NCBI RefSeq assembly: GCF_000336875.1
Contig: NZ_AOJK01000081.1
Span: 6,946-55,260, forward strand
DNA from: Halorubrum californiense DSM 19288
GTDB lineage: Archaea > Halobacteriota > Halobacteria > Halobacteriales > Haloferacaceae
DNA: 48,315 nt
Reading direction: 5' to 3'
Position 1 is the stretch's first letter. Every line of letters starts with the position of its first letter. Positions 10,322 to 42,862 of this stretch are shown here, piece after piece. Position numbers and translations under genes: made by a program. Under the pieces are notes generated by a model. The model was given only the letters and a program-made list of their open reading frames with translations. It did no database searches and was not told where the DNA came from.

Positions 10322-10359
10322 TGTCTATGTCCAAAAGACATTTAGCCATAAAACTATTA

Positions 10360-11673
10360 ATGTCTGCTGTCGTGAGGCGAACCAACACGCTCACCGTGCG
10401 GCCGCTCTCCGACGCCGACGAGCGGCTACTGCGGGACCTGTTGGACGCCTCTGCGAGCCTGTGGAACGAACTCAACTACGAGCGCCGCCAGCAGTTCTTC
10501 GACGGCGAGAGCGTCTGGGACACCGCCGACTACCGCAAACAGTACGTCGGCGTCCTCGGCTCTGCTACTGCCCAGCAAGTGATACGGAAGAACAAATCCG
10601 CATGGCAGTCGTTCTTCGCAGCCCGCGAAAACGGCGAGAACACCGCCCCGCCGGGCTACTGGGGCAACGAGGATAATGGGCGCGAGCTACGCATGTTCAT
10701 CCGCAACGACCAGTACACGCTGGAAACCGGTGAGCGGTCACGGGTCGAAATCCCCGTCGGCCAAGACCTGAAAGACGAGTACGGCCTTGGCAACCACGAC
10801 CGCCTGCGGCTGGAGGGGTGCGGTGCTCCCAAATGGGGCGGCAAACAGGGGCGCTTGGAGATACAGTACGACGAGGTAGACGACACGTTCAGGGCCTTTC
10901 AGCCTGTCACTGTACCCGATTCTCGACAGGATTCACCACTGGCTTCCGAAGAAGCCGCGCTGGACGTGGGCGCGAACAATCTCGTCGCCTGTACCACCAC
11001 AACCGGCCAGCGGTACCTCTACGAAGGCCGGGAAATGTTCAACCGCTTCCGCGAGACGACCGACAAAATTGCTTGTTTACAGTCCAAACTCCGTGAGAGA
11101 CGAGACAGCAGTCAGCGGATACGGCGGCTGTATCGCAAACGGACGCGACGGCGCGACCACGCACAAGAGACACTATCTCGGGATCTGATGGAACGGCTCT
11201 ACGCCGACGGTGTCGATACGGTATATGTGGGCGATCTCACTGACGTTCTGGAAGCTCACTGGTGTGCCGAGGTGAACGCCAAGACCCACCAGTTTTGGGC
11301 GTTCCGGGCGTTCATCAACCGCCTCTCGTACACTGCCGAGGAATACGGGATCACCGTCAAGGTAGAGTCAGAAGCTGATACAACCCGAACGTGCCCGGCG
11401 TGTGGCGAGCAAGACGACACCCACCGGGACGGCGACGTGTTTCGGTGTCCGTGTGGTCACGAAGCTCACGCCGACCTGTGCGCGTCTCGCACGTTCCTCA
11501 AACAGCAGGCTGGCAAAATCGAAGCAGGGTCGATGGCTCGGCCCGTGCGTCTCAAGTGGGACGACCACAACTGGTCGGAGCTACCACACTCTCCCGAGAA
11601 GGAAAGTCCCAACGAGGAGCGCACAAACCGGAGTACCGGCGACGGGAAACTTGCCTCTGTGGGTACGGCATAG
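10360..11673 (+). CDS. tnpB: TnpB, divergent subfamily with Glu-to-Gly active-site change
   Basis: 437 residues from the ATG at 10360; longer in-frame starts at 10291 and 10327 would overlap the promoter. The first acidic residue is present (D202, ALDVGANN) and so is the third (D372, HADLCAS). The motif holding the catalytic Glu in other TnpBs (V-x-E-[DN]-L) reads YVGDLTDVL, with Gly at about 291. The zinc finger is C345, C348, C363, C365 with a shortened second knuckle (CPCGH). It is divergent from a small RHH-like gene and followed by a right-end hairpin. Whether it still cuts DNA is open: the adjacent Asp might substitute, or the protein may only bind. Confidence 0.92.
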
Positions 11674-16283: not shown

Positions 16284-16459
16284 GCTCCCACCCATCGGGA
16301 GCACAACAATCCCGGCAGCCCACCCCACCGGAGCGCCCCGGTGACTCGCTCGGCACGCGACCCGGAATCGGTCCACTCACTGGACACCACCCGGGCTGTT
16401 TCGTTCACTAGACTCACGGCGGAACATTCATATTGGTTCATGTCAACATTCCACATGTT

Positions 16460-19400
16460 ATGGGGCGCGCTGCCGACTCCCCCGCTGATGACCGCACAGA
16501 CCACACGCACCTCCAGATCCAACCGACTGAGACCGAGCTGTCAGCCGCCGCGGTCGAGCAGGGGTTTCGTCGGCTCCACGGGCTCGAGACGGAGTCGAAC
16601 GGCTGGACCGACCGCCTCCGCGGGCCGACCCCGCCAACCCTTGAGTTTCGGCTCCACCGGCCGGCCGGCGCCGACGCAGCCCTCAGTCTCTATGCGGGGA
16701 TCACTGACGCCCCCACAGCAACACTCCGGGCGGGGTTACGCGCCGCCTGTCCCAACGAGTACGAACTCACGCCGGCGACACCACCCTCGATCCCCACAAC
16801 GGAGTCGACAGAGTCGGCACCCGACAGCGAAGAGTCGACGGCGTCAGTCGACGAAGAGCCCCTACGTGCCGTCGAGTGGGTGGGTGATGCCGACCGGCGC
16901 GACGACTGGCAGACCCGGCTCACGCCGTTCGAAACGTTCACTGACGACGACAGCCGGCTGCCGCTGGCGGCCGTCGTGGAGACGCTCGCGGAGACGGACG
17001 CGGCAGTCACCTACCAGGTGGTCTGTCAGCCGTTTCGCGACTACCGCGGCGACGTACGATACCGAAAACGCCAGCTTGAGGCCGGCCGCGACACGCCAGC
17101 GAGCCGGTTCGTCACGGATCTGATCGGGCCTATCACCGATCCGGACGAGACGGCCACCACGAGCGGAGACGGTGATAGCGACCGGCTGACAGCACTCGAC
17201 GCCGTCGACCCCCGGCACGCGTTCGTCGTCAACGCCCGCTGTCTGATTCGGGGGCGTGATGCCACGGCAGTCGCCGAGCAACTGGCCGGCACACTGGGCG
17301 CGACCTCCGGGCCCTACTATCGGGTCGACGCCACCCAGGCCGACGACCCGACGCGGGTCGCGGCCGCCATCCGCGACCGCACGGTCCACCAGCCGGCGTA
17401 CGACACGCTCACAACCAAGCTCCCGTGGACGGCCAATCGGAGCCGCGGGATCGTCGCGGACGCGGCCAGCGCTCCCGGCTTCGCGCTCGTCGATGGCGCC
17501 ACGCTCACCGCCGCGGGGAGCCGAGCAGTCGCGCCAACCGACCCGGATCGCACCGTTGTGGAACCGCCACCCGTCAGCCAACTCAAGCGTTATCACACGG
17601 CCGGGCTCACGCTGGGGCATCCCCGCGATCAGGACGGCACGGCTGCGAACGATCCTGTCGCGGTGCCGCCGGCGCTCCAGTCGCTTCACGTGGCGTGGTT
17701 CGGCAAGACCGGCTCGGGCAAATCGACGAGTCTCCTCACGGGGATGCTCGACAATCACGCCGCCACGGACGGCGCCGAGGTCCTCATCACACCGAAAGGC
17801 GGTGATATGGCTGCGGCGTATCTGCGCGCCCACTACGCGCGGTACGACACGCTTGAAGACGTCTACTACTTTGACTGTACCGAAACGCTGCCCGCGCTGT
17901 CGGTTTTCGATATTCGGCCACAACTGGCGGCGGGGATCGACCGGGCGACCGCCGTGGCGAATCTCACCGACCACTACATCGAAATTCTCGAAGGCGTGAT
18001 GGGCCCCGAGCAGTTCCACCAGGCGGTGCGGTCGCCCGACATCATCCGCCAGCTGGTGAAGGCCCTCTTTGATCCGGTCCACGGGAGCGACGCCTTCCCC
18101 CACCGGGATCTCCAGCGGGCGGCCGCCCGCTTTCATGAGACGGGTGAGCCGCCGGCCGTCACCGACGACGAGCTCCAGGCGATGCTGTACAACGTTGCCG
18201 CCAACAGCCAGCAGACGTTTGATGAGCTCCTTCAGGGTGTCCACAACCGGATCGAAAAAATCCCGCTCGATGACCGACTCGGCCAGCTGTTCAATCATGT
18301 GCCCGGCGACGGCGACCCACACCTCGACTGCCGCGAGGTGATCGACGAGGACGCCGTCGTCATCATCGACACCGGCGGGCTCCGTGACGCCAGCCAGCAG
18401 GCGCTCACGCGGACGGTGCTCTCGAAGCTGTGGACCGCCCTCCAACGACGCGCCCAGACGACCGCGGCCGATGCCCGCCCGCTCGTCAACCTGTATCTCG
18501 AGGAGGCCGCCCAGCTGGTCACCTCGGGGATTATCGACGATCTCCTCGCACAGTCACGCTCGTTCGGCTGTAGCGTCACGCTCGCCACCCAGTTCCCCGG
18601 CCAGCTCCGGGTGCGCGACGAGGCCGCCTACGTCGAGTTGCTCAACAATGTCTCGACGATCGTGACCGGGAGCGTCCCCGTCGATGATGCCCTGACCAAG
18701 CGACTCGCCACTGCTGATCAGGAGCCCGCCGCGGTCGCCAACCGACTGCGCGCGCTCAGCCGCGGTGAGTGGCTGGTACGGCTGCCCGCGCCGTTTAATG
18801 AGCCACCACCACCGCCGTTTCTGGCCGAAAGCGCGCCGCTGCCGCCCGGCCACCCGGACCGGGATGAGTTTCGCCCCGCCCGGGAGACGGCGGTCGCCGC
18901 CCGCATTGATCAGTGTCGCGACCAGACCCGACTCACGGCCGGCCTGGATATCCGGACACCGCAGCCGACCACCGGCGACGATGCCGACGAAGCAACAGCC
19001 CCAGCCGAGGCGGCCGCCGCACGCGTGGATTCGGCGTTGCCGTACACCACGCGACTGCCCGACCCGGTTGGCTACGATGATGAGCGGCACGCACTACAGT
19101 GTCTGCGCTGTGACAGTCGGTATGACCCTTCGCCAGAGGGGCTCCGCGCAGCGGTGGCGTGTTGTCACGACCCCAGCGAGGTCGACCGCGACGACTACCC
19201 CATCTGTGAGCTGTCGCTCAAGCTCACCTACACCGAACGCCAGGAGAGCCCGATTCGTGATGCGGGCCTGCGCTTCCTCCAGGCGGTGTACTCAGCCCAT
19301 CAGGGCCAGTATGACCCTAAAATCGAGTATGACATCACCCGCGACAGCATGCGGCGGCTCCAAGAGTACGTCGACATCGATGACGCCGAACTCGACGAGC

Positions 19401-19987
19401 TGCGCGAGGCGGGGCTGCTCAGCCGCGACTGTCGGTACCCACACATCTTGTACACGGTGACCCCGGACGGCCGTGACGCCATCGGCGTGCGACATCGTGA
19501 GGGGGTCGCCCACGGTGCGGGCGCCGGCGACCTCAGCGAGTCAAGTCTCCACGTGGCGATGGTGGAAGCGGGCACAGCGCTGCTTGAGACCGAGTATGTC
19601 GCCGACCCGGACTCACCGGCCGTCAGTGTCGAACAGTACTACGAGGTCCCCGAGGGCCGGCTTGACGCGGCCGCCGTCGACGAGACAGGCGCGGTGGTCG
19701 CGGGGCTCGAAGCCGAGCGGATGAACAACGACCTCGCACAGGCGGTGCCCGACGACTACGACAAACTCGCGGCCCAGGAGCCGGCGGCCGCCATCTGGGT
19801 CGTCAAAAACCGGGAGGCCGCCCACGAGATTCTCACGGCGTTGAACACGCCACCGGACGGCCAACCACGCGTCGAGAAGACGTACGGCGCCAAGACAGCA
19901 CCCGTGTCGTTCACCATCGCCCAGCCTGGGCTCACAGCTGTGAAAACGTTTCAGTCAGTCCGTGACGCGTACGACAGCCGCGGCTAA
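16460..19987 (+). CDS. HerA/TraD-like conjugative ATPase with C-terminal nuclease-like domain
   Basis: 1175 residues from the ATG at 16460; an in-frame TTG lies at 16433. N-terminal ~400 residues: acidic domain of unknown fold. Walker A is FGKTGSGKS (about 414-422). A Walker-B-like strand VVIIDTGG is near 632 and LYLEEAAQL near 677, followed by SVTLATQFPGQL, the sensor segment of HerA/VirD4/TraG ATPases. After 880 come a zinc-ribbon-like CLRCDSRY...CCH, a winged-helix stretch (YDITRDSMRRLQEYV, TVTPDGRDAI) and a last domain with GRLDAAAVDETG and VAGLEAERMNND. The Asp, then Glu-x-Glu pattern suggests a PD-(D/E)XK nuclease. Likely the coupling protein or DNA pump of conjugation. A TATA-like TTCATATT lies about 30 bases upstream. 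Confidence 0.82.
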   Translation: MGRAADSPADDRTDHTHLQIQPTETELSAAAVEQGFRRLHGLETESNGWTDRLRGPTPPTLEFRLHRPAGADAALSLYAGITDAPTATLRAGLRAACPNEYELTPATPPSIPTTESTESAPDSEESTASVDEEPLRAVEWVGDADRRDDWQTRLTPFETFTDDDSRLPLAAVVETLAETDAAVTYQVVCQPFRDYRGDVRYRKRQLEAGRDTPASRFVTDLIGPITDPDETATTSGDGDSDRLTALDAVDPRHAFVVNARCLIRGRDATAVAEQLAGTLGATSGPYYRVDATQADDPTRVAAAIRDRTVHQPAYDTLTTKLPWTANRSRGIVADAASAPGFALVDGATLTAAGSRAVAPTDPDRTVVEPPPVSQLKRYHTAGLTLGHPRDQDGTAANDPVAVPPALQSLHVAWFGKTGSGKSTSLLTGMLDNHAATDGAEVLITPKGGDMAAAYLRAHYARYDTLEDVYYFDCTETLPALSVFDIRPQLAAGIDRATAVANLTDHYIEILEGVMGPEQFHQAVRSPDIIRQLVKALFDPVHGSDAFPHRDLQRAAARFHETGEPPAVTDDELQAMLYNVAANSQQTFDELLQGVHNRIEKIPLDDRLGQLFNHVPGDGDPHLDCREVIDEDAVVIIDTGGLRDASQQALTRTVLSKLWTALQRRAQTTAADARPLVNLYLEEAAQLVTSGIIDDLLAQSRSFGCSVTLATQFPGQLRVRDEAAYVELLNNVSTIVTGSVPVDDALTKRLATADQEPAAVANRLRALSRGEWLVRLPAPFNEPPPPPFLAESAPLPPGHPDRDEFRPARETAVAARIDQCRDQTRLTAGLDIRTPQPTTGDDADEATAPAEAAAARVDSALPYTTRLPDPVGYDDERHALQCLRCDSRYDPSPEGLRAAVACCHDPSEVDRDDYPICELSLKLTYTERQESPIRDAGLRFLQAVYSAHQGQYDPKIEYDITRDSMRRLQEYVDIDDAELDELREAGLLSRDCRYPHILYTVTPDGRDAIGVRHREGVAHGAGAGDLSESSLHVAMVEAGTALLETEYVADPDSPAVSVEQYYEVPEGRLDAAAVDETGAVVAGLEAERMNNDLAQAVPDDYDKLAAQEPAAAIWVVKNREAAHEILTALNTPPDGQPRVEKTYGAKTAPVSFTIAQPGLTAVKTFQSVRDAYDSRG

Positions 19988-24497: not shown

Positions 24498-25309
24498 CAC
24501 ACACGTACCCCTCCATAACGAGACGTAGCGTGCTCACAACCGTTGCTGCCGGGAGTCTGACCGTCGCCGGCTGTTCCGAGAGCCGTGCGCCAGCCACGAC
24601 GGGCGCGGGTGCTATCACGGAGGTCCGTGTTGACGACACCACGCTCGTCGTCGAGTACGACGCCGACACGAGCGCGACCGGCCTCGCCGTGATTGCGCCC
24701 TCCGGTGAGGCGTTTGCCGAGCGTGAGCTCACACCCGGCGCAAGCCAGGAGAGCATTCCCATTGGGACGACGTACCCACCGGGCACCTACACCGTCCAAC
24801 TCGTCGATGCGGACAGTGTTGTGGCTGCGGTTGAGCGGTCGCTTCGACCCGAGGTCGTGATTCGGGAGCTGAAGCTTGCTCGGAACCACCCAGAGGAGAT
24901 GTACGAAGGCGCGACGAATCAGGTCGTTCGGACCGAGACCATGCTTCACGTAGAGAATCAGGGAAGTGGACCAGAGAAGCTGGTACAACTCCGATTTGAT
25001 GGATACGTCCCACGGCCGACGCCAGAGCAGTCGGACGATAGTGGAATTGTTGTTGTTGACGACCAGCCGGAATTCCATACCGAGCCGGTCATCGACCCCG
25101 GTACTTCTGTGGAGTTGTACTCACGGGAATTTCCGTTCTCATCCAGCAGTCAGGAAGCGAGTTGTGAACCAAATGGGAGTGATGGGCAGTTTACCGTAAC
25201 TCTCGTTGGGTCCGTCAGTGGAGACAGTACTCAACAAACGTACGAAGTCACATACGAAGGGGAGGACCTGCTCACCTGTGATATCTCGATTCAGGAGGGT
25301 GAGTTATGA
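24494..25309 (+). CDS. Tat-exported lipoprotein of the conjugation operon
   Basis: 271 residues from the ATG at 24494. The N-terminus TRRSVLTTVAAGSLTVAGC is a twin-arginine signal with a lipobox (VAGC), the usual haloarchaeal export route for lipoproteins. The mature part is acidic, beta-rich and of unknown family, with Ig-like strand patterns (TTLVVEYDADTSATG, GTYTVQLVDADSV). It overlaps both neighbours by four bases (ATGA). The last third, from about 24890 on, is visibly lower in GC than the neighbours and continues so into the next gene. Role inferred: surface component of the mating apparatus. Confidence 0.78.
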   Translation: MTHTYPSITRRSVLTTVAAGSLTVAGCSESRAPATTGAGAITEVRVDDTTLVVEYDADTSATGLAVIAPSGEAFAERELTPGASQESIPIGTTYPPGTYTVQLVDADSVVAAVERSLRPEVVIRELKLARNHPEEMYEGATNQVVRTETMLHVENQGSGPEKLVQLRFDGYVPRPTPEQSDDSGIVVVDDQPEFHTEPVIDPGTSVELYSREFPFSSSSQEASCEPNGSDGQFTVTLVGSVSGDSTQQTYEVTYEGEDLLTCDISIQEGEL

Positions 25310-26409
25310 GTGGGGTCTCACTCACAGACGTTGGATTTCAGTGGTTCCTAGATGCTGTTGAACAGATCATCGAGTGGTTTGATGATGGCGTCAAAAACGG
25401 ATACCGCGATCTGACGGAAGCACTCTTCGGAACCCCAGTTCCGGAGGCGTCCAATGGCATCCCACTGGGGGAGCCGAATAACGAACCGTGGGTCCAACTT
25501 TACGATTCACTGGTCGCCGGAGAGGTAGCACTCATCGCTTTCTTGATTCTCATCGTATGTGTTCAGGGCAGACATATAGTTCGTATCTTCAATTTCGCAG
25601 ACCCAATACGGGATAGGAGAGTGCGCAGGTCGGCGTGGACTGGCGTGATCCTGATCGCGACTTGGTACTGGGTTGCTGTGACCTCCTTATTCCTCATCGA
25701 TGGCTTTGCCATCGCACTTGTTCCCCCGGTGAGGTCAGTCGTGGATCCCTTGGTTGATTTCCTCGATGTTACTCTCTCAAACCCCACCTTGGGATTGATT
25801 CTTGCATTCGTCGGCGCGCTCGCCATGTGGATACTCCAAGCCCTACTGTACCTCCGTGAACTCCTGTTGTACGTCTTCGTGTACGCGATGCCGATCGCGA
25901 TCGCGGTCGCATACGGTGGGATCCCCGTGTTGTCGGATATCGCCGCCCGCGTGGCAGTCAAGTTCATTCCCCTGGCGGTGATGCCGCTCCCAGTCGCGCT
26001 GCTGTTCCGCGGGTACGACCTCCTCATCGGCGGCGACGCGGCGACACTCGCACCCGAGAGCCCGTTCTTCGGCTATCTGATCGCGGTGTCGCTGCCGGTG
26101 GTGAGCGTGTGGATCATCTGGCGGCTGTTCGCGTACGCGACCCCACGGCTGGTGCGTACCGTGGGCCGGGTGACCGGGCTGACCGTCACCGCGGGCGCGG
26201 TTGTCGGCGCCACCGCAGTTGCGGGCCCATGGGCGGGCGCCACCGCGGCGCGATGGGGGCCGAAAGCCGCGGCCGGGCAGGCGGCCGCCCAACAGCTCGG
26301 CGGCGAGCGTGACCAGGGTGAGACGACGACAGCATCGGCACCAGCCGTGCGAAGCACCGAGACGGGCGCGCCCAGCTACCGGCGCACCGAAAACGAACCC
26401 CGCCCATGA
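25306..26409 (+). CDS. VirB6/TrbL-like polytopic membrane protein
   Basis: 367 residues. After an amphipathic start come at least six membrane segments: EVALIAFLILIVCV, GVILIATWYWVAVTSLFLI, LGLILAFVGALAMWILQALL with LLLYVFVYAMPIAIAVAYGG, FIPLAVMPLPVALLF, LIAVSLPVVSVWIIW and LTVTAGAVVGATAVAG. The tail is soluble and low-complexity. The layout and its place directly before VirB3/VirB4-like genes fit the VirB6/TrbL inner channel protein of type IV secretion. The first half has lower GC than the second, starting abruptly near 25860, which suggests a recombination joint. Start and stop overlap the neighbours by four bases. Confidence 0.75.
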   Translation: MSGVSLTDVGFQWFLDAVEQIIEWFDDGVKNGYRDLTEALFGTPVPEASNGIPLGEPNNEPWVQLYDSLVAGEVALIAFLILIVCVQGRHIVRIFNFADPIRDRRVRRSAWTGVILIATWYWVAVTSLFLIDGFAIALVPPVRSVVDPLVDFLDVTLSNPTLGLILAFVGALAMWILQALLYLRELLLYVFVYAMPIAIAVAYGGIPVLSDIAARVAVKFIPLAVMPLPVALLFRGYDLLIGGDAATLAPESPFFGYLIAVSLPVVSVWIIWRLFAYATPRLVRTVGRVTGLTVTAGAVVGATAVAGPWAGATAARWGPKAAAGQAAAQQLGGERDQGETTTASAPAVRSTETGAPSYRRTENEPRP

Positions 26410-27494
26410 GTGACCAATCTGACTCGCCGGCGAGCCGGCGCGTGATGGACACGCTCGGAACGGGCCGCCAACTGCCAATCGTCGGGATCGACGAGCGGGA
26501 TCTGTACGTGCTCGTCGGCTTCCCCATTGCGGGGTTAGTGGGTGGCGCGGCAGTCGGCGCGGACGCCCTCGTGTTGCCGCTCGTGTGTGTTGGGCTCGCA
26601 GTTGGCGTCGCCGTCGTGTACGCCGCGCCGCGACAGCTCCCCGCCAGCACGTGGCTTGCCGACCTCGCGCGGTTTTACCTGCGTCGGCCACGGGTGACGC
26701 TCCACGCGGCAGTGGCTGACGAGGCGACGGCCGGTGGTAGTGAGGGTGTCCCGCGGCCGTTCGCCGTCGACGAACACACCCAAGCGCTGACGGGGATCAA
26801 GCGAGCGTGGCCCGGCCACGGCGCAATCGAGCAGGCGGACGGGACGATGGCGACGTACGTTGAGGTTACGCCGGGCAACATGGACTTCGCGATGGCCGAC
26901 GACTGGGCTGCGCGCCAAGCGGTGGGCGAGGCGTTCGCCGACCAAGAGCTCACCTTCCAGCTGACGCTGTACACGACGACCGAGCCGTATCCGGCTGCGA
27001 CCCTCGTCGACCAGCTTGAGGCACGACTGGCCGACCCGGACGTGAGCGCAAACGAGTCGCTCCGCAGGCTCATCGCCGCCTACCGCGAGCAGCGACCCGC
27101 GGATCTCGCGGACACCCACCGAGTGCGCTACTTCCTCGGTGTTCAGGTCGCGCCGTACGACGTCTACGAGCGCCACCCAGACGAACGCACGCCGGCGGAG
27201 CGACTCACGACGCTCCCCGTCGTGGGCGTGTTGGTGACGCCGTTCGTCACGCGGCGAGAGCGCCTTACGGAGGCCGAGCTACGGGGCGCCCAACTCGAGA
27301 CGCTTCGCGAGCGGGTGCGGACCATCGAGACCGAGTTCATCGGCAAGACCAGTGACGCCGCTGGGCGGCGGCTCTCGACGGCAGAGCTGTTAGGATTGGC
27401 CACGCAGTTTTGGACCGGAAGCGACAGTGAGACGCCGCCGGTTGCCACACACGCGGGGGTCGATCACGAAACACGAGGGGATCGCAATGGGTGA
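26406..27494 (+). CDS. VirB3/VirB4-N-like membrane protein
   Basis: 362 residues. Two closely spaced membrane helices near the N-terminus (LYVLVGFPIAGLVGGAAVG and LVLPLVCVGLAVGVAVVYAA) are followed by a soluble domain. This matches a VirB3/PrgI-like unit fused to the non-ATPase N-terminal domain of VirB4-type proteins (ALTGIKRAWPGHGAIEQADG, YVEVTPGNMDFAMADDWAAR). There is no Walker motif. It would form the membrane base on which the following VirB4 ATPase docks. Its stop overlaps the ATPase start by eight bases. Confidence 0.72.
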   Translation: MSDQSDSPASRRVMDTLGTGRQLPIVGIDERDLYVLVGFPIAGLVGGAAVGADALVLPLVCVGLAVGVAVVYAAPRQLPASTWLADLARFYLRRPRVTLHAAVADEATAGGSEGVPRPFAVDEHTQALTGIKRAWPGHGAIEQADGTMATYVEVTPGNMDFAMADDWAARQAVGEAFADQELTFQLTLYTTTEPYPAATLVDQLEARLADPDVSANESLRRLIAAYREQRPADLADTHRVRYFLGVQVAPYDVYERHPDERTPAERLTTLPVVGVLVTPFVTRRERLTEAELRGAQLETLRERVRTIETEFIGKTSDAAGRRLSTAELLGLATQFWTGSDSETPPVATHAGVDHETRGDRNG

Positions 27495-29508
27495 CGTGGT
27501 GGTCGTGGTGGCCGGGCTCGACTCGCTGTCAGCCTCGACGCTCGTCTTGGGGGCGACGCTCAGCGGTGGGCTCCTCGTCGTCGGAATCTTAGTGGGGGTG
27601 TGGGTACAGGCGCGGCAGCCAACCCACGATCCCGAGGTGGATCTGTCGGCGTTCATCGAGCCGCCGGATTCGCCGCCGGCGGCAGATCCCGCTGTTGCGT
27701 CAGCTAGCCAGCGGGATCAAGACGCCGTCGCGCCCGCAGCCGTCGAGTGGGAGAGTCGGTGTGCGCGTGTCGGCGACGAGTGGACGACCACCCTGTACAT
27801 CGCCGACTGGCCGGATTATCCCAGCGACGGCTATCTCAGCGAGCTGTTCACGCTGACAGATGTCCGGTTTCACGTCACTGCGCAGGTCAGCCCGCGGGAT
27901 CAGGAGCGGGCACTCGATCAGCTTCAGGCGGCCGCAGACGATCTCAAGGTTGACGCCGATCTGGAGTCAAGCGTTCGCAGCACGTATCTCCACGACCGCG
28001 CGACTGAGGCAGCGGGAACCTACCGCGCCGTTGAGGACGGAACGCGCGTGTTCTCGCAGGCGGTGTTCGTGACCGTGCGGGCGGCCGACCGGGAGGACCT
28101 GCGGGCGGCCGTGCGCCGGGTGAAACGCACACTCCGTGAACAGCCCGCCCAGCTTGCGCCGAAGACGGCGATCTGTGCCCAACAGCGAGCGCTGCGGAGC
28201 GCGGCGCCGTTCGGTGGGGCGCCACTGGATCGCCGCACAACGGCGTTAAGCGGCGCCGTGGGCGCGCTGTTGGCGTCGCCGCACCGGCCCACCCTGTTAG
28301 AGGCAGACGGCGTCGAACTCGGCGTCCAACGGCATACGGACACGCCCGTCGTCGTCGATCCCTTTGCCCGGGAGAACGGGTACGCGACCTTTACGGTCGG
28401 TGACCCGGGCTCGGGCAAGAGCTTCAGCGCGAAACAGCGATTCATCCGGTCGGTGGCCCACCACGAGGACCGCATTGGGGTGATCTTAGAGCCGCTCAAC
28501 GACTGGGCGGGCGTCGCCGAGGCGCTGGACGCTCAGCGGATCACGGTGGGTGGCACGCTCGGGATCAACCCGCTCGAGATCACGCCGCCCTCCGAGCAGG
28601 CGCGGCACCGGCAGGGGGCTGACGCCAGCCCGTTCACCGAAAAGAAAGAGCGCGCGATCAGTTTCCTCGCGAACTTCTTTGCGCACCGCGGGATCACGCT
28701 TGGCGATCGGCGGACGACGCTGGAGCTGGCGATTGAGACCGCGTATCGAAACGCCGGGATCACCGAAGACGTGACCACCCACGACCGGGCAAGCCCCACG
28801 CTGCGTGACGTGATTGATGTCCTCGAAGGGATTGTCGCTGACCCGACAGCCCACACGCTCCGGACGGACGCCGAAGCCGAGAAACTCAACGCCGATGCGA
28901 CGTGGCTCATCGACCAGCTACGGCCCTTCGCCCCGGACGGCCAGTTCGCCCACCTGGGCCGGGCCAGCGAGATCGATTTCGGCAGCACCGATCTGGTGTA
29001 TCTGGATCTGGCCCAACAGGAGGGCCGGGTCGGCGGGCGGACGAGTCTCGTGATGCAGTTGCTCATCTCGTCGGTGTACGAGCGCGCTAAAGAGACGGAC
29101 AAGGAGGTGGTCTTCGTGATCGATGAGGCTAGGTATGTGTTGCGTGACGCCGAGAATCTCGCCTTCCTTGAGACGATCTTTCGGCACCACCGCCACCATG
29201 ATCTGTCGATTCAGCTGGTCACACAGACGGTCGATGAGTTCTTCGAGCGATCCGAAGCGGAGATGATCCTCGATCAGTGTGCGATCAAGCAGTTCCACCG
29301 GCTGGACGGGATGGATGACCACTGGGCGACGGAGTTCGGGTTAAACGACGCCCAAAAGCGATTCGTCCAAGAGGCGGTGCCCGGTAACGAGGAGTTGGGG
29401 TACGCCGAGGCGCTTGTGGGGGTCGACGGTGAGTGGCGCGGGATCGAGATCCGAGCGCTTCCCGCCGAGACGGCGGTGATCGAGGGGACTGGTGAGGGCG
29501 ATCTGTAG
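27487..29508 (+). CDS. virB4: VirB4-family conjugative ATPase
   Basis: 673 residues from the ATG at 27487, which overlaps the upstream stop; the longer frame from 27427 lies inside the previous gene. One N-terminal membrane helix (ASTLVLGATLSGGLLVVGIL), then the VirB4 middle domain, Walker A GDPGSGKS (about 305-312), Walker B VVFVIDEARY (Asp 546, Glu 547) and the sensor VTQTVDEFF. HRLDGMDDHWATEF and FVQEAVPG are typical of the VirB4 C-terminus. It powers pilus or channel assembly and substrate transfer at the membrane. It is the last gene of the operon that starts at 22431; the following gene is on the opposite strand. Confidence 0.92.
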   Translation: MGDVVVVVAGLDSLSASTLVLGATLSGGLLVVGILVGVWVQARQPTHDPEVDLSAFIEPPDSPPAADPAVASASQRDQDAVAPAAVEWESRCARVGDEWTTTLYIADWPDYPSDGYLSELFTLTDVRFHVTAQVSPRDQERALDQLQAAADDLKVDADLESSVRSTYLHDRATEAAGTYRAVEDGTRVFSQAVFVTVRAADREDLRAAVRRVKRTLREQPAQLAPKTAICAQQRALRSAAPFGGAPLDRRTTALSGAVGALLASPHRPTLLEADGVELGVQRHTDTPVVVDPFARENGYATFTVGDPGSGKSFSAKQRFIRSVAHHEDRIGVILEPLNDWAGVAEALDAQRITVGGTLGINPLEITPPSEQARHRQGADASPFTEKKERAISFLANFFAHRGITLGDRRTTLELAIETAYRNAGITEDVTTHDRASPTLRDVIDVLEGIVADPTAHTLRTDAEAEKLNADATWLIDQLRPFAPDGQFAHLGRASEIDFGSTDLVYLDLAQQEGRVGGRTSLVMQLLISSVYERAKETDKEVVFVIDEARYVLRDAENLAFLETIFRHHRHHDLSIQLVTQTVDEFFERSEAEMILDQCAIKQFHRLDGMDDHWATEFGLNDAQKRFVQEAVPGNEELGYAEALVGVDGEWRGIEIRALPAETAVIEGTGEGDL

Positions 29509-33238: not shown

Positions 33239-34513
33239 TTACGGTTCGCGGTTCACGACCTGTTCTCGCGGGGCGAAACTACCCTCGCTGCGGTCGAACA
33301 GGTGAACCGCTGGCTGTGCCAACCAGCCGTTATCCCTATCACCGCCATCCGTGGCGAGACTCGGGAGTACCTTTTGTCGAATGTTCTCCGCACCGTTCAC
33401 GTCCGCGTTCGCAACCGTCTCGCACTCCTCGCACACGTACAACCCACGTTCGACACGTTGGTTGTCGTCTGTGTGGCCGCACGCCGAACAGGACTTCGAC
33501 GTAGCCCGTTCCGACACCAACTCCATGTCGATGCCTTCGGCTTCTGCCTTGTAGTCAAGCAGCGTCGTGAAGCGGTCGAACGCCCACCCGTGTAAGTCGA
33601 GATTGCCGTGGTCGCCCCAGTTGCGTGGTTCGCCGTTCTTGTCGTCTTCTCGGATGCCACCGAGGTCGCCAACGACAAGCGTCCCAACACCTCGTTCGAT
33701 ACACTCCTCGACAATCGCTTTCGAGAGTGCGTGCAAGAAGTGTGCCCGACGACCAGTCCGCGTCCGGTCAAGACGGGCGGCCTCACGAGACGAGGGATCG
33801 TCGCACTTGGCTTTCTTTTTCGTGAAGTAGTATTCGTCCTCTTTGAGTGCGCCACCGGGATACAACACCGACTCATCGCCGAACGAGACGGCAGCGAAAT
33901 TACAAATCCCGAGGTCAACACCGCCCACCTCGTCGCCCGGTGGGTCCGGGTCGATGACGGTGCGACAGACGAATTGAAGACGCCACTCGTCGCGCTTGTA
34001 GATCGCGCGAACCTGTTGAATGTCCCACTCGGTCAGGTCAACGTCCGGGCGAGTCTGGTACTCACACAGGATGAAGTCTGAACGGTGTTCTTTGAGGTTG
34101 CGGCCTTTCGAGAGGCGAACACGGGTGAACCGTTCGTCGTGCTTGAAGCCAGCCGCTTTGAACGACACGGTTGAACGCGGGTGGGAGTCTCCATTTTTGC
34201 GGTAGCCGGGCGGTCGGGCACGGTTATCGCCGTTCCGACGCTTGCCGAACCAGCCGTTGAACGCTTCAGCGAGTTCTTCGAGAACGCGCTGACTGGATTG
34301 AGAATGCAAGTCCGTGTAGCGTTCGTGACTTTTGAGTTCGGCTTTGAGTTCCCCATCATCGGGGATCTCGCCCGTTTCGTCCCACTGTTCTTGTGCGTAG
34401 TAGCGACCGACGTTCCAGAGTTTTGAGGCGGCCCATCCGAGTTGGTCGAGGTCGTCACGAACCTGCCGCTGGTTCGTGATGGTGGCCTCGAAGGTTCGGA
34501 CGGTTCGACTCAT
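33239..34513 (-). CDS. tnpB: TnpB, subfamily with Gly at the catalytic Glu position
   Basis: 424 residues, ATG at 34513. First Asp at 200 (GGVDLGICN), third Asp at 371 (ANADVNGAENI), zinc finger C342, C345, C361, C364 (CSACG, CEECE). The second motif reads LVVGDLGGI (Gly 282) where active TnpBs have Glu, the same change as in the TnpB at 10360. Nevertheless the gene is full length, with conserved RTFEATI start and DYKAEAEGI...SERATSKSCSACG segments, so it is maintained as a protein. Right end at its 3' side (33186-33205). No TnpA. Confidence 0.93.
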   Translation of the reverse strand: MSRTVRTFEATITNQRQVRDDLDQLGWAASKLWNVGRYYAQEQWDETGEIPDDGELKAELKSHERYTDLHSQSSQRVLEELAEAFNGWFGKRRNGDNRARPPGYRKNGDSHPRSTVSFKAAGFKHDERFTRVRLSKGRNLKEHRSDFILCEYQTRPDVDLTEWDIQQVRAIYKRDEWRLQFVCRTVIDPDPPGDEVGGVDLGICNFAAVSFGDESVLYPGGALKEDEYYFTKKKAKCDDPSSREAARLDRTRTGRRAHFLHALSKAIVEECIERGVGTLVVGDLGGIREDDKNGEPRNWGDHGNLDLHGWAFDRFTTLLDYKAEAEGIDMELVSERATSKSCSACGHTDDNQRVERGLYVCEECETVANADVNGAENIRQKVLPSLATDGGDRDNGWLAQPAVHLFDRSEGSFAPREQVVNREP

Positions 34514-34652: not shown

Positions 34653-34866
34653 GATTTCGTATAAGATCTCTAACCTCGAGAGCCGACCTCGCTGAGACGG
34701 ACTGTCGCAAGTTCTCTGCGCAACTGCGACGGGCCGGTTTTACACACCCTGTCAGGCGGCTCACCGCGAGTGGCTCCGGTGAGGAGCTCGCGGCGGCGTG
34801 AAGCGTTCGTGTTCAATTCCTCACATCCACCCACTAACCTTCGATCGCGTCGCGACGCGACACACC

Positions 34867-34887
34867 CACCCCACCGGTTCCGCTGTT
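34867..34887 (-). promoter_or_regulatory. Origin recognition box-like repeat, copy e
   Basis: On the minus strand reads AACAGCGGAA-CCGG-TGGGGTG. It lies just beyond the 3' end of the orc1/cdc6 gene, so origin elements flank the initiator gene on both sides. Confidence 0.8.
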
Positions 34888-34934
34888 AGTACGGGGCGGA
34901 CGCCGCTATTTCAGTCCCACGGAAGAGTCCCCAC

Positions 34935-36119
34935 TCACGCCGACTCCAACAACGTCGACAACCCGCTCCGAACCGCCGACACGGACTGTTCGAGTTGATG
35001 TTCGTTGTACTTGCCCCCGTCTTTCCCTCGATTATGCTCTGTCACACCAGTGATCCCCAACTGTGCCAACTCCCCCAGATAGTCACGGACAGACCGCTCC
35101 GAGACCGGGCTCACCCCTTCCGAGTGCGCGACGGACCGGTACGTCTCGACGACTTCACGCGTCCGAACCGGCGTGTCGCCGCGCTCGTGGAGCCGTGTCA
35201 GTGCGTACAACACGAGCTTGCCGTGCTGCGAGTAATTCTGTATCCCCTCGACAACCTGGTCTGTTTGAACGCGCTCGCGGGCTTCCTGGACGTGCGACTC
35301 GGTCACGACATCGGACCCGCTCTCGCGGGCGACATCACCCGCCTCCAAGAGGAGATCCAAGGCCTTCCGTGCGTCACCGGAGTCTTTCGCTCCATAGGCG
35401 GCACACATCGCGATCACCCCGTCTTCGAGAACGGTATCTTGGAAGGCGACCCGTTCGCGCTGTTCGAGAACGAGTCGGAGCTCGTCGGCATCGTACGCGC
35501 TGAAGGACACCTCCTTTTCACACAGCGACGATTGGACCTTCGAAGAGAGTTGCGTCCGGAAGTCCAAGTCGTTCGAGATCCCGATAACGCCGAGCTTCGC
35601 CTCGCTAATGTCGCCGTTTGAGCGCGCACGGGAGAGCTTGTAGAGTAGGGAATCGTCGCCGATGTGATCGACTTCGTCGAGCACGATGAGTACCGTCCCG
35701 CCATACGCATCGAGTTCGTCGAAGAGGAACTCGTACACGCTCGCTTGCGGGTATCCCGTATTGGATATCTGCCGGCCCGGTTCACGGAGTTCGTTAACCA
35801 ACTTTACAGCGACCTGGTAGGACGTGTTCAGCCCGTCGCAGTTGACCTCGATCGTCGTGAGCTCGAGCTCCGGTACGTCGGTCGCGTCTCGCTCGAGCGT
35901 GCGGAGCAGATAGCGCGTGGCCGCGGTCTTACCCACGCCGCTTTTTCCGTAGAGAAAGACGTTCGAGGGGGTCTCGTTGTTGATGACCGGCTGGAGGGCG
36001 GCGTGGTAGCGGGTGAGTTCTTTGTCGCGCCCGACGAGGCTGTCCGGCGTCCACTCTTCGAGAAGTGCCTCCCGATTCTCGAAGATGGCATCGTTTGGCG
36101 TGAACGAGAAATCGCCCAT
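34935..36119 (-). CDS. orc: Orc1/Cdc6 replication initiator
   Basis: 394 residues, ATG at 36119. AAA+ core: LVGRDKELTRYHAAL, Walker A YGKSGVGKTA (57-66), Walker B VLIVLDEVDH (Asp 148, Glu 149), sensor-1 region LGVIGISNDLDF, and the ISM/sensor-2 area VSFSAYDADELRLVLEQR. A C-terminal winged helix starts near 300 (HGKLVLYALTRL, RSVRDYLGELAQLGITGV). This is full length for a haloarchaeal Orc. It binds origin repeats and loads the MCM helicase. Five identical-core repeats surround the gene, four in its upstream region, so this is an autonomous replicon. A TATA-like GATATAAAAC lies about 20 bases before the ATG. Confidence 0.95.
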   Translation of the reverse strand: MGDFSFTPNDAIFENREALLEEWTPDSLVGRDKELTRYHAALQPVINNETPSNVFLYGKSGVGKTAATRYLLRTLERDATDVPELELTTIEVNCDGLNTSYQVAVKLVNELREPGRQISNTGYPQASVYEFLFDELDAYGGTVLIVLDEVDHIGDDSLLYKLSRARSNGDISEAKLGVIGISNDLDFRTQLSSKVQSSLCEKEVSFSAYDADELRLVLEQRERVAFQDTVLEDGVIAMCAAYGAKDSGDARKALDLLLEAGDVARESGSDVVTESHVQEARERVQTDQVVEGIQNYSQHGKLVLYALTRLHERGDTPVRTREVVETYRSVAHSEGVSPVSERSVRDYLGELAQLGITGVTEHNRGKDGGKYNEHQLEQSVSAVRSGLSTLLESA

Positions 36120-36197
36120 ACTGACAGCCTACCCTACTCGGATATAAAACCATTACTTCTGTTGTTTCCGGTGTTACGTGCTGTTTATATACTATCG

Positions 36198-36218
36198 AAC
36201 ACCACCGCTTCCGCTGTT
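36198..36218 (-). promoter_or_regulatory. Origin recognition box-like repeat, copy d
   Basis: On the minus strand AACAGCGGAA-GCGG-TGGTGTT, slightly degenerate at the end. It faces copies a-c across about 80 bases. AT-rich DNA (TTTATATACTAT, 36184-36195) beside it could be the unwinding element. Confidence 0.8.
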
Positions 36219-36297
36219 TATGTTGCGATATCTTGGACGACTCCGTAGCCTCACTTCGCTCACCAGCAGTCTGCCGACAGGCTTGGTGTCTCGTACT

Positions 36298-36318
36298 AAC
36301 AGCGGAACCGATGGGGTG
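36298..36318 (+). promoter_or_regulatory. Origin recognition box-like repeat, copy a
   Basis: AACAGCGGAA-CCGA-TGGGGTG. First of three direct copies spaced about 50-60 bases apart upstream of the initiator gene. Confidence 0.85.
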
Positions 36319-36347
36319 AGCGAGTTCACCCCCGAAAGACAACTGCT

Positions 36348-36368
36348 AACAGCGGAAGTAGTGGGGTG
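36348..36368 (+). promoter_or_regulatory. Origin recognition box-like repeat, copy b
   Basis: AACAGCGGAA-GTAG-TGGGGTG, preceded by CT as in copy a. Fifty bases after copy a. Confidence 0.85.
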
Positions 36369-36406
36369 GGGGTCCTCTCGGATTGCGGAGCCCCATCGTC
36401 TGGGTC

Positions 36407-36427
36407 AACAGCGGAAGCAGTGGGGTA
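36407..36427 (+). promoter_or_regulatory. Origin recognition box-like repeat, copy c
   Basis: AACAGCGGAA-GCAG-TGGGGTA, 59 bases after copy b. The outermost copy on this side. Confidence 0.85.
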
Positions 36428-36455
36428 GGAGGGTCTTTACAGGGGAACACCGAGA

Positions 36456-37530: not shown

Positions 37531-38793
37531 ATGGAGGTCCGCCGCACCGTCCCTGTCAAGCTCAATGTGGCCGACAGCGACGCCGACCTCCTCGATGAAA
37601 CTATCTCCGAGTTCCTGTGGGCTGCCAACTACGTCGTCGACCACGCCTGGCAAGGCGAGTATAAAACGACGAGCAAAGCCCAACTCCAACGGGAAACCTA
37701 CGACGACGTGCGGGCTGAGACACGGTTACAAGCGAATCTCGTCCAGAACGCCCGCAACAAGGCCGCCGACGCCGTCCAAAGCGTCGTCGCCCGCTGGAAA
37801 CAAGGCGACTACGCAGGGAAACCGCACTTCACCGCTCCCACACTCGTCTACGACAAGCGGTGTGCGACGTTCAACGACGACCATGCGACGCTCTCAACCG
37901 TCGAAGGCCGCATCACGGCCGAGTACGTCCTTCCAGACGAGAGCCGCGAGACGCCCCACTCGGAGTATCTGTTCAACGACGACTACGACGTAACGGGCGC
38001 AGAACTCCACTACCGCGACGGCGAGTTCTACCTTCATGTCCGCACAAAGGCGGATGTGGAGTCCGAGACTGCCGACGATGGCAACGACGAGCACAGCACA
38101 GTCCTCGGCGTTGACCTCGGCATCGAAAACGTCGCCGTCACATCAACAGGCACGTTCTGGAGCGGCGCAGAGCTAAACCACTGGCACCGCGAGTTCGAAA
38201 AGCGACGCGGGTCACTCCACCAGCGTGGAACTCGGGCCGCCCACGAAACCATCCAATCGGTCGGACGCACCGAGACAGGTCGGTACGACCACTTTTTACA
38301 CACAGTCTCGAAAGAACTCGTCGCAGAAGCCGTCGAATACGACTGTGACGTGATCGCGTTCGAGAACTTGACTGGAATTCGTGAGCGGATGCCGAACGTC
38401 AAGAAGTTCCACGCGTGGGCCTTCCGACGCCTGTTCGAGTACGTCGAGTACAAAGCCGAGATAGTCGGCATCTCGGTCGAGCAGGTGAGTCCTGCCTACA
38501 CCTCCCAGCGATGTTCGAAGTGCGGGACGACACTCCGAGAGAACCGTGAGACGCAAGCACGGTTCTGTTGCCAGAAGTGCGGTTACGAAGTGAACGCCGA
38601 TTACAACGCAGCGAAGAATATCGGTCTGAAGTATCTCCGCTCGACGCAAACGTCGTCGGGCGGAGGCGCACCCGTAAACGTGCGCTTGAATCGCGGGACG
38701 TTGAATGTGAACGGCGATTACGAGCCTGCCAGCGATGGCCAGAACAGGAGTCCACGCGAAAGCCCCATCACCAGAACCTTCGGTTCTGGTTAG
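37531..38793 (+). CDS. tnpB: TnpB, IS1341-type
   Basis: 420 residues. RuvC-like residues are all present: D195 ([10 protein letters not shown]), E278 (IAFENL), D357 (VNADYNA). Zinc finger C328, C331, C347, C350. It is the same subfamily as the TnpB at 1645, sharing YVVDHAW/FLWAANY-type starts, [12 protein letters not shown] and SSGGGAP. The promoter region has AAATTTAAAAACGAGAGTATACA. The gene ends inside a hairpin (38770-38790) and a second hairpin follows at once, the probable right end and guide-RNA scaffold. It is predicted catalytically competent. No TnpA. Confidence 0.95.
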
Positions 38794-39658: not shown

Positions 39659-42600
39659 TTGGGACTCACTTTCGCTGCCGGCGAGGCCGGGATTGCGCAC
39701 ACGCAGAATGTGGCTGCCCCGATACACGAAGCAATGGCGTCGATCACCCAGGCGTGTCTGGCCGACGGGTCGACAGCTGAGAACCTTCGCTCGCGACTCG
39801 ACAGGCTCGCGACTGGACTCGGGGGGCCTGCTGGCTGGACGCTTGCGCATCCCGGATACGACCCCTTCGCGCGCGAGGCTGACACTGATGAGAGTTGGTC
39901 GCAGTACCTCCGCTCGTACGAACTCTCGGTGCTCGCCGCCGTCCAGCCGCTTTTTACCGCGTTCACAGACGAGGTGGTGTACGCGCTGCTCACGGCCGCC
40001 GCGACGGCGTCGATCCGTGCGCCGATGGGTGAGAGTGACCGACTCGTTGACGACCAGCAGTTCACCGTTCCGACGGTCGTGTTTGTTGACGCCATCGCTC
40101 AGCTCACGACCGGGACGCGGCTCTACCAAGATCTGTTTGACGCTGGCCTGTCGCTTCCACACCTCGCCAGTGTGTTCGAGGAATCTGTCGGAACAGGTGG
40201 GGCTGGCGTTGATCAGGCCGGTGAGACGCTAGCAGACGCGTATTCCGCGACAATGGCGAACACTGACGTTTCTCACGCAGACGAGATACTAACCCACACG
40301 ACAGCCACCTATCGCCGGTCGAGTGTACCGTCATTTATTCTCGTTGAGGAACCGGCCACGGAGACAGTCCGCCTCCACGCGCTTACCGAGGGGTTACCGC
40401 TGTCGCATCTGGCCATGACGCTGCTCCGTGTCACGTACCTCCAGAGCCTCTACGTCGGCCGCCCCCGGTTTCAAGACGAGACGTACTCGTCGTTGCTCCG
40501 CGCGTTGATCGCCAACGCTCCGGGGCTCCCAGATGAGCCTGTGGCGTATCTGCGACGTCTGACCTACCTTACTACGCGCACCGCTGACCAGCTCTCACGT
40601 GAGACGTTTCCGCAGAACGTCCGCGCACAGTACGCGACACGAAATTCGAGCGCAACGAGGTGGCTGAGGCTCCGTAGCGAACTCGAAACGGATCGCTCGG
40701 TCGACACAGACGCCACAACACTCACCTACGAGAGCGGCATGCCGCTCACATATTTCCTCCCAGCAGCGGCGGCTACCTACTTCGAGGATCGATTACTCGC
40801 GGAGGCTATCGAGACGTACACCGCATACGCGAGATACGCGCTCACACACGAGACGAGCGAGACCTTTGGAGCGCTCATCCACATTTTCTCACAGTTCGAG
40901 GCGACCACGCCGGCGACACCGAGGCTGGGTCCGCTCTATAGGGCGATGGCCGCGTGGGCAAGCGATCAGGCAGATCCCGATGGAGCGACTGCTCGCGTCT
41001 TCGGCACCGCACTCGCGCGCCTGTTTGTCTTCCCGAGCACGGAGTCGACAGCGTGGAGTCGTCGGCTCTACGCTGAGTACCGCGAGCGTGCGACCAACGC
41101 GGACGACGACTCACCGCTTCGGCCACTTATCGCGACTGGCCTCGCCCGGATTGTCCGGGCTGACACCCAGACGAGCGAGGCATCGATCGACGACGCCATC
41201 GGCTCATTTCTCAGGCTGATCGTCACAGCTGAAACCGACCTCTCACAGAGCATCGCGTCGATCGGTCTCGGCGTCGCGGACGCGGTCGAGATCGTGTGTG
41301 ACCGCAATCCGGAGGCACCGAACACACGCCGGAAACAGCTCCAGGCCCTCCGAGACGGACTCTTAGAGACTGCCAAGCAATCCGACTTAGGCCTTCCTGC
41401 CTCCGTCTGGGTGAATATCGCCGCCGTGAGCGCCGCGTCGGTCGCACAGCGGGGAATGCCGCCTGCGTTCGCTGACGAATACACGACTTTCAGACGGCTG
41501 GCCGTGGCCATTATCGAAAATACCTCTACTGAGTGGGGGGCGTTTTACGAGCAGTTTACTTCAACGCTTGTTCGCGATTGTGCGCCCTCAACAGTTACTG
41601 CGTGGGCCGAAGTTGAACTCTCTATCCTCACAACGAGCCAGACTGACGTCGGCACCCCGTCGGCAGTGACGCAGCCGAGTCGACTGGCTCGTTTCGTGAG
41701 TCACCTACTCCAATCGCTAGCCACAGCGCATGCGTACGAAACCGCCGCGAGCGTTGCCGACCAGCTCCGCGACCGAGCGATCTCTCACCTGTCGTGGGGA
41801 GAGTTGACACCGATCCTCCAGCGGCCACTCAAGACGCGGGTTAGCCAAGAAACGCTTGCGGACGACCCCGACGGCTGGCGACAATTCACACGAGAGGCGT
41901 TCACCGGCGATGCGTCGCTGACGCAGTCGCGACGTGTGTTCATCTCCGTCTACGGAAGTCTGCTCGCGTGGCTCATCGAAACCGGGCATACGGGGCCCAA
42001 TGGAGGCACCATCGTTGACGATATGCGAGAGGTGGTCAACACGACTACGCTTCCGGCAGAGGCCCTGATGGGTGCCTTCGGGTTTGCGACCGCGGTTGTG
42101 GCTCGTGACGGTGACCGGGCCGACTCAGCGACCGTGACGTGGGTGAGTTGGCTCCAGCAAACGGTCGGCGATATCGCTGCGACACGTGCTAACACAGCCG
42201 CTCTGATCCATGAATACGGACTACAGCTTATTACTCATCATGCGCTGTTCGATGAGCCGTCTGCGGCGACGGCGTCGCTCACGGACCTCCTGGCTGTCTT
42301 TTCCACAGAGTACGGGACAGCGACCACCACTCGGCTTCCCGCCCTGCTCGGGGCTGGAATGGTCGACATTGGCCGCTACGCCGTCCAGTTCGACGAGGGT
42401 GACCTCAGCGAGTGGATGGACTGTGTCTACGACACAGCGGAACAGCACGCGCGTGCCGCCCCCGACCAGGGACCGTTCCTTGCGAGTACGCTCACTGCGT
42501 TTGTCCAGCAGATGCTTCAGCGACGGCGCCAGACTTCTGGTGCCCTTGTTGACGCACTCACCTTAGCCACGGCGTATGCCAACCAGACGGCCTCTCGATC

Positions 42601-42862
42601 CCAGCTTGATGACCTCCCAGCGGCCCTCTGGGTGTACACTACCGCGCAGGTTGATCGCGACTACGACGGCATCGAACGCACCCGCCTCCTTCGGACGCTC
42701 CGACACACAGCCCCTGCCCACGTCGACTCTCACTCGTGGAATGCGTTCGCGGCGAAGATCGAGCGATACGAGTCCAGAGCCGTGGGTGACACCACCGGTG
42801 CCATTGAAATGCTTGGTCCTGTCATTGATGAGACGGAGACAACTCGACTACCAACCTCGTAA
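39659..42862 (+). CDS. Very large acidic helical protein, unknown (main part after frameshift)
   Basis: 1067 residues from a TTG at 39659. The same frame is coding-like back to about 39542 (EQANATAEPLAHTDAGTERH, YERDELRRLGLTFAAGEAGI), where no start codon exists, so the real N-terminus lies in the other frame at 39198. The sequence is almost entirely helical, acidic, and rich in Ala/Thr/Leu, with recurring 30-40-residue helix pairs (for example DEPVAYLRRLTYLTTRTADQ, YALTHETSETFGALIHIFSQ), suggestive of a solenoid scaffold. No catalytic, membrane or nucleotide motif was found. Four bases after its stop the 42866 gene begins, so the two are probably co-translated. It could be a structural or partition-related plasmid protein; no family recognised. 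Confidence 0.75.
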   Translation: MGLTFAAGEAGIAHTQNVAAPIHEAMASITQACLADGSTAENLRSRLDRLATGLGGPAGWTLAHPGYDPFAREADTDESWSQYLRSYELSVLAAVQPLFTAFTDEVVYALLTAAATASIRAPMGESDRLVDDQQFTVPTVVFVDAIAQLTTGTRLYQDLFDAGLSLPHLASVFEESVGTGGAGVDQAGETLADAYSATMANTDVSHADEILTHTTATYRRSSVPSFILVEEPATETVRLHALTEGLPLSHLAMTLLRVTYLQSLYVGRPRFQDETYSSLLRALIANAPGLPDEPVAYLRRLTYLTTRTADQLSRETFPQNVRAQYATRNSSATRWLRLRSELETDRSVDTDATTLTYESGMPLTYFLPAAAATYFEDRLLAEAIETYTAYARYALTHETSETFGALIHIFSQFEATTPATPRLGPLYRAMAAWASDQADPDGATARVFGTALARLFVFPSTESTAWSRRLYAEYRERATNADDDSPLRPLIATGLARIVRADTQTSEASIDDAIGSFLRLIVTAETDLSQSIASIGLGVADAVEIVCDRNPEAPNTRRKQLQALRDGLLETAKQSDLGLPASVWVNIAAVSAASVAQRGMPPAFADEYTTFRRLAVAIIENTSTEWGAFYEQFTSTLVRDCAPSTVTAWAEVELSILTTSQTDVGTPSAVTQPSRLARFVSHLLQSLATAHAYETAASVADQLRDRAISHLSWGELTPILQRPLKTRVSQETLADDPDGWRQFTREAFTGDASLTQSRRVFISVYGSLLAWLIETGHTGPNGGTIVDDMREVVNTTTLPAEALMGAFGFATAVVARDGDRADSATVTWVSWLQQTVGDIAATRANTAALIHEYGLQLITHHALFDEPSAATASLTDLLAVFSTEYGTATTTRLPALLGAGMVDIGRYAVQFDEGDLSEWMDCVYDTAEQHARAAPDQGPFLASTLTAFVQQMLQRRRQTSGALVDALTLATAYANQTASRSQLDDLPAALWVYTTAQVDRDYDGIERTRLLRTLRHTAPAHVDSHSWNAFAAKIERYESRAVGDTTGAIEMLGPVIDETETTRLPTS

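Follow-up and report, generated by a model that had tools for sequence, protein, structure and literature searches.

Origins of Haloarcula hispanica depend on their own adjacent Cdc6, and this dependence includes oriP-cdc6K, which was found experimentally to be essential for its plasmid pHH400 (Wu et al. 2014, PMC3936714). At another origin of this organism, oriC2-cdc6E, the ORBs downstream of the gene have been shown to titrate the initiator. That the sequence of an ORB goes with the family of its Orc had been described before by Wu et al. (2012, PMC3528665), who printed TAACAGCGGAAACAGTGGGGTGGGGGGGT as a haloarchaeal ORB of origin II, found at Hla_3512 on the megaplasmid of H. lacusprofundi and at HQ2959A in H. 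walsbyi. The same authors were surprised by the presence of two ORB types at one orc gene, Hla_3512, and took the adjacent intact Orc as the cognate protein. Among the predicted origins of haloarchaea there are some that have good ORBs and yet are dormant or inactive (PMC3528665, PMC4595724).

The window analysed here is a stretch of 48,315 nucleotides from Halorubrum californiense DSM 19288 that carries an orc1/cdc6 gene surrounded by five ORBs. The locus belongs to a known class of origins, of which it is an ordinary and well-preserved example, and it is highly probable that it forms a self-contained Orc1/Cdc6 origin cassette, of a type carried by haloarchaeal plasmids and integrated elements, that works by the mechanism proposed below. 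As an origin, the cassette adds one more well-delimited Orc/ORB pair; what lifts an otherwise ordinary locus is a conserved array of 9-bp repeats at the promoter of orc. This array, which the initial annotation of the window had missed, is a feature both general and open to test.

The orc gene and its boxes

The orc1/cdc6 gene (34935..36119, minus strand) is an intact reading frame for a protein of 394 aa with an AAA+ ATPase domain, a lid, and a C-terminal winged helix. The protein matches the Pfam families Cdc6_lid, Cdc6_C, and AAA_22/AAA_16 as well as the NCBIfam model TIGR02928 (E 6e-130, above the cut-off), and has homologues in the PDB (2qby_A, E 2e-62; 2v1u_A, E 1e-59), so that its relationship to Orc-DNA complexes of solved structure is clear. 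With AAA+, lid, and winged helix in a single chain of more than 300 aa, it can be assigned from its sequence to the Orc1/Cdc6 initiator family. The nearest named relatives of the gene are those of Halorubrum ezzemoulense DSM 17463 (Orc 99% identical), H. lipolyticum, and H. coriense, and also that of Halonotius pteroides; no relative of this Orc was found in viral contigs.

A search for the pattern AACAGCGGAA-N4-TGGGGTG on both strands of the 48-kb window, with up to three mismatches allowed, returned five matches with zero to two mismatches and no others, and dinucleotide shuffles of the window gave a mean of 0.13 matches and a maximum of one. The five boxes lie at the positions and on the strands where the initial annotation had placed them. 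ORBs a (36298..36318, no mismatch), b (36348..36368, no mismatch), and c (36407..36427, one mismatch) form a direct set on the plus strand, ORB d (36198..36218, minus strand, two mismatches) is inverted relative to these and stands 79 bp before the orc start, and ORB e (34867..34887, minus strand, no mismatch) lies past the 3′-end of the gene. The G-string TGGGG is present in boxes a, b, c, and e, and reads TGGTG in box d, whose 3′-end is degenerate (TGGTGTT). Wu et al. (2012) used as a criterion that inverted ORBs occupy the intergenic DNA right beside orc, and such an arrangement is provided here by box d against boxes a to c.

At up to two mismatches, the 3.68-Mb draft genome holds one further box only, C5:5091 (L104:5091-5111, G000:C5), which lies near a contig end; the reversed control pattern gave zero matches in the same genome at this threshold, and tblastn found no Orc on the 5.6-kb contig C5. 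A single further site leaves no regulon, which argues against the suggestion that the repeats are sites of a transcription regulator and that this Orc is mainly a regulator and not an initiator. Non-initiator Orc1-2 regulators are described in Saccharolobus (PMC9738581), the conserved DNA includes the promoter of orc, and some solitary boxes are found with no orc gene close by, all of which would fit such a function, but several inverted boxes with G-strings beside an orc gene are the hallmark of tested origins. A mainly regulatory role is therefore very improbable.

The annotated layout of three direct boxes, one box facing them, and one past the 3′-end of an intact orc gene holds for the window and is essentially kept in orthologues from Halorubrum and Halonotius (Orc 86-99% identical). 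What recurs is a set of boxes directed away from the gene, an inverted box some 79 bp upstream of the start codon, the gene, and a box 33-50 bp past the stop (ORB e, present there in 10 of 10 aligned orthologues), with the variations that the inverted box is not recognisable at L024 and that L106 has an extra one. In an alignment of 11 loci, identity to the window is 0.80-0.91 for the boxes (0.905 for a and b, 0.814 for c) and 0.22-0.52 for the spacers. ORB d occupies the same position in nearly all orthologues and lacks the full TGGGGTG end in every orthologue examined. This constant damaged end, together with the conserved element TATATAAA (36184..36192, minus strand, 0.856 conserved) that follows just 3′ of box d in most orthologues, suggests a distinct role for box d. 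Among the orthologue boxes, the first base of N4 is C or G in 58 of 59 and the second is C or T in all 59. The annotated pattern captures all five boxes of the window, but N4 is not free in this family and box d does without the full TGGGGTG.

The DNA between box d and the gene (36120..36197) is AT-rich, as had been pointed out for the DNA adjoining this box, with 59% AT versus 38% for the window, and is 59-72% AT in 11 orthologues. It contains the orc promoter and is a candidate unwinding region. The criteria of Wu et al. (2012) also call for an AT-rich unwinding element with ORBs on either side. The stretch is flanked by box d and, across the gene, by box e, and does not lie between inverted boxes; the segment between the inverted boxes d and a (36219-36297) is 46% AT. 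This location outside the inverted pair counts against the explanation favoured here, in which the AT-rich stretch would be unwound. GC skew has no clear switch at the locus and is uninformative.

Orc clades and box variants

The exact motif occurs in 86 of 392 haloarchaeal genomes surveyed, and the reversed control gave none among the matches listed. When 30 exact matches from other genomes were sampled as 3-kb loci, a relative of this Orc was found within about 1.5 kb in 26. Wide occurrence of the repeat away from orc genes, which had been named in advance as evidence to the contrary, is thus mostly not seen in the sample, though lone copies exist.

Box sequence varies with the Orc. Relatives that are about 68-100% identical to the window Orc have boxes reading AACAGCGGAA followed by C/G and then C/T; relatives at 57-64% identity (Halorussus, Haladaptatus) have boxes with A at the first N; those at 54-56% identity (the pHH400 counterpart, pNG700, Halobaculum) have boxes with GGAC; and a paralogue in the same genome (L002, 45% identical) has the box GCTYCGGAAACRGTGGWG. 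A tree of 145 Orc proteins places each of the four box classes in a clade of its own. The number of changes is three, which is the minimum and was reached in 0 of 200 shuffles; near-copies inflate the clustering, but the picture is a clean one. Four ORB variants, each on one Orc clade, support well the earlier suggestion that this Orc has its own specificity, and family-specific recognition of its box is well supported at the level of sequence comparison. Such recognition is not new, and neither is the box type: the core that had been regarded as a departure from the known ORB belongs to the same ORB that was printed in 2012 (PMC3528665). The graded series GGAA-SY, GGAA-A, GGAC, and GCTYCGGAA, with one Orc clade each, is material for the question of how initiators tell origins apart.

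A comparison of winged helices, which the initial annotation had proposed, did reveal a few class-fixed residues (295-297, 320, 340, and 347), but clade history alone could explain these. A generic ORB search with a loose GGAA-TGG pattern gave mostly noise, so class motifs were used instead. Single perfect boxes with no Orc nearby are found at C5:5091, L026:1589, and L031:5647 and at loci L042, L045, L046, and L048; the L031 box is intergenic in a 37.6-kb viral contig, and L032, with a single match, is apparently not a haloarchaeal virus. Such solitary boxes may be remnants or sites that titrate Orc, or else origins that are borrowed.

Half-box repeats at the orc promoter

The DNA that separates box d from the orc start contains a 33-bp promoter element, AACACCGGAAACAACAGAAGTAATGGTTTTATA (36143..36175, minus strand), which is 0.861 conserved in 10 orthologues, equal to the boxes. 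It holds two 9-bp half-box units on the minus strand, CACCGGAAA (36165-36173) and CAACAGAAG (36156-36164), which run into the orc TATA box TTTTATA (36143-36149, minus strand). The units of the window are degenerate, and stronger ones are found in relatives, with CAGCGGAAG CAGCGGAAC CAAAGGTTAAG at Haloarcula-type loci, CAGCGGACA CTCCGGACA CTGCGGACA GGGGTGGTTTTATA on pNG700, and GCTTCGGAC GCTTCGGAA GCTACGGAA ACGGTGGTTTTAT at L002. In several families the array unit equals the family's own ORB core.

The array was surveyed in 41 Orc families (65% clusters) by self-match at each lag in the interval -95..-18. Self-match at lag 9 is 0.311 (z 7.1), and lags 7, 8, 10, and 11 are at background. At a threshold of 11 of 18, which unlike the lag profile was picked after the data had first been seen, 17 of 41 families pass at lag 9, two at lag 8, and none at lags 7, 10, and 11; segments further upstream or downstream yield 2-5 families, and control promoters of other genes (n=10) are too few for a strong control. 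The lag-9 signal recurs across a set of eight families outside the discovery set (z 4.3, 4/8). In the discovery set, array units match the ORB cores of their own family over those of others (trace 27 versus 4.5, P 5e-5); this own-core match was not significant in a four-family validation (P 0.16).

Half-box copies on orc's own promoter suggest that the initiator controls its own supply. Half-sites of the initiator at its promoter are what an operator calls for, though the units in the window are degenerate, and by this comparison Orc may regulate its own gene. It is also conceivable that a tandem array of cognate half-ORBs, spaced 9 bp apart and leading into the orc TATA box, is a general type of operator by which many Orc initiators of haloarchaea govern their own expression, a generalisation that is offered tentatively and that we lean slightly against. 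If the arrays are operators, they would reveal how an archaeon that has ten initiators or more can keep the supply for each origin separate. No published description of the promoter array was found in the literature covered, which was mostly without subscription journals and supplements, and its novelty is provisional.

The 9-bp repeats might instead belong to the unwinding or loading machinery, as a track along which Orc assembles into the AT-rich DNA in the manner of DnaA-trios. Their strict 9-bp period and their location within the AT-rich stretch adjoining ORB d would suit such a track. On the other hand, the repeats abut the orc TATA box (GG-TTTTATA) in family after family, including families with a differing ORB arrangement, and in bacteria sites placed in this way often serve the autoregulation of an initiator, and an assembly track is accordingly considered distinctly doubtful. 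The operator reading is followed below.

Genomic setting of the cassette

DNA homology to genome G024 (90% over 1,588 bp) covers positions 34850-36435 of the window, that is, box e to box c. At other Halorubrum loci the homology stops near these positions or short of them, and in the flanks nothing but scattered IS-like pieces is related. Since only the box-to-box block is common to these genomes, in surroundings that are otherwise unrelated, the block is best regarded as a mobile or portable origin cassette and not as part of a conserved plasmid backbone. The cassette is also present on plasmids of Haloarcula, Natronococcus, and Natrinema, and two relatives, G024 (contig of 2.94 Mb, also with the oriC1-type orc) and G045, have near-identical cassettes on contigs the size of a chromosome.

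The window itself lies on a contig of 58,524 bp (C81), the ends of which are IS-like inverted copies, 97% identical over 303 bp; a direct overlap of the ends was looked for, and only these inverted copies were found. With such ends, and with near-identical cassettes on chromosome-sized contigs, "complete replicon" was too strong a term for the locus. The statement that the layout defines the origin of the element reaches from anatomy to function. Contig ends of this kind and the cassettes on chromosome-sized contigs lend some substance to the idea that the cassette is intact and rarely fires, its DNA being integrated in, or carried by, a replicon that is served by another origin: the contig ends give no evidence of a circle, G024 has its oriC1-type orc, and Haloferax mediterranei is known to have dormant origins (PMC4595724). 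However, purifying selection clearly acts on the boxes, on the Orc frame, and on the promoter element, and an origin silent for long would no longer be subject to it; moreover, conjugation-like genes, which a mobile element would be expected to have, are present on the contig. Dormancy is on balance unlikely, while deserving appreciable weight, and an active cassette is the preferred reading.

The conjugation-like genes (16433-19987, 25306-26409, and 27427-29508) have matches that are weakly TrwB-like, strongly TrbL/VirB6-like (E 4e-143), and to a VirB4-like ATPase, and suggest a conjugative plasmid or integrative element. The 48 kb also contain five TnpB/OrfB (IS605-type) genes (97-930, 1645-2946, 10291-11673, 33239-34513, and 37531-38793), two of which stand either side of the origin cassette, and a 1067-aa reading frame (39659-42862) with zero Pfam or NCBIfam matches.

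Proposed mechanism

The anatomy of the cassette, its conservation, and the match between Orc clade and box variant point to a mechanism in which ORBs a to d would be bound by Orc, with the winged helix on the CAGCGGAA core and the AAA+ insertion on the G-string. Orc would open the AT-rich stretch beside box d (36120-36197) and would then load the MCM helicase, steps that are predicted from homology to Orc-ORB complexes and tested haloarchaeal origins. Surplus Orc may be bound by box e past the 3′-end, a possible titrating site by analogy, and Orc on the half-box repeats would keep TBP/TFB off the orc TATA box, so that the supply of initiator would be self-limited. A cassette of this kind would be expected to have origin activity and to replicate autonomously. 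Points that weigh against the explanation, besides the location of the AT-rich stretch, are the dormant or inactive cases among predicted origins with good ORBs, the single box downstream of orc, the degeneracy of the half-box units in the window, the own-core match that was not significant in the validation set, and the lack of a clear skew switch.

Comparison with known systems

Genome G016, which looks like H. lacusprofundi, has nine boxes of the window type at L101:2962-4480 (G016:C3, about 253.0-254.5 kb), after a 281-aa reading frame that retains, of the Pfam domains of an Orc of the window family, the Cdc6 lid and the winged helix alone. This frame is 58% identical to residues 131-391 of the window Orc, and the intact Orc adjoining it is only 32% identical. 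With an N-terminally truncated Orc relic beside nine boxes, the second ORB type at Hla_3512 may be the remnant of a broken cassette of the window family and not a second site of one Orc. The ORB of Wu et al. (2012) has the core, G-string, and spacing of the window boxes and differs in its N4, which is ACAG, whereas N4 in the window family starts with C or G.

Haloarchaeal oriC1 likewise combines an Orc with inverted ORBs bearing G-strings, but the oriC1-type locus of the same genome (L006) has CACCTGAAACAGAGGGGT boxes and a longer Orc. The oriC2-cdc6E origin of H. hispanica, with its ORB-rich oriC2D, resembles the window in having ORBs both upstream and downstream of the gene, with 11 downstream ORBs versus one here. 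Box e is thus like the titrating ORBs of cdc6E in position and unlike them in number, and one downstream box on its own makes a weak titrator. The possibility that the window Orc belongs to the oriC2-cdc6E family was rejected, as the probable H. lacusprofundi counterpart, which we take to be such from its locus numbering, shares only 41% identity with it and lacks boxes of the window type.

Initiator sites over the initiator's own promoter are also found in bacteria, in the half-iteron operators of plasmid Rep proteins and the DnaA boxes of the dnaA promoter. These share with the window element their placement over the promoter of an initiator gene, and the proteins and DNA sequences are unrelated. 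Autoregulation of dnaA is cited in the study of oriP-cdc6K (PMC3936714). That plasmid origin resembles the window locus in that ORBs specific to its Orc stand to either side of the gene and that the promoter has a 9-bp array, and differs from it in an Orc that is 54% identical and in boxes that carry GGAC, not GGAA.
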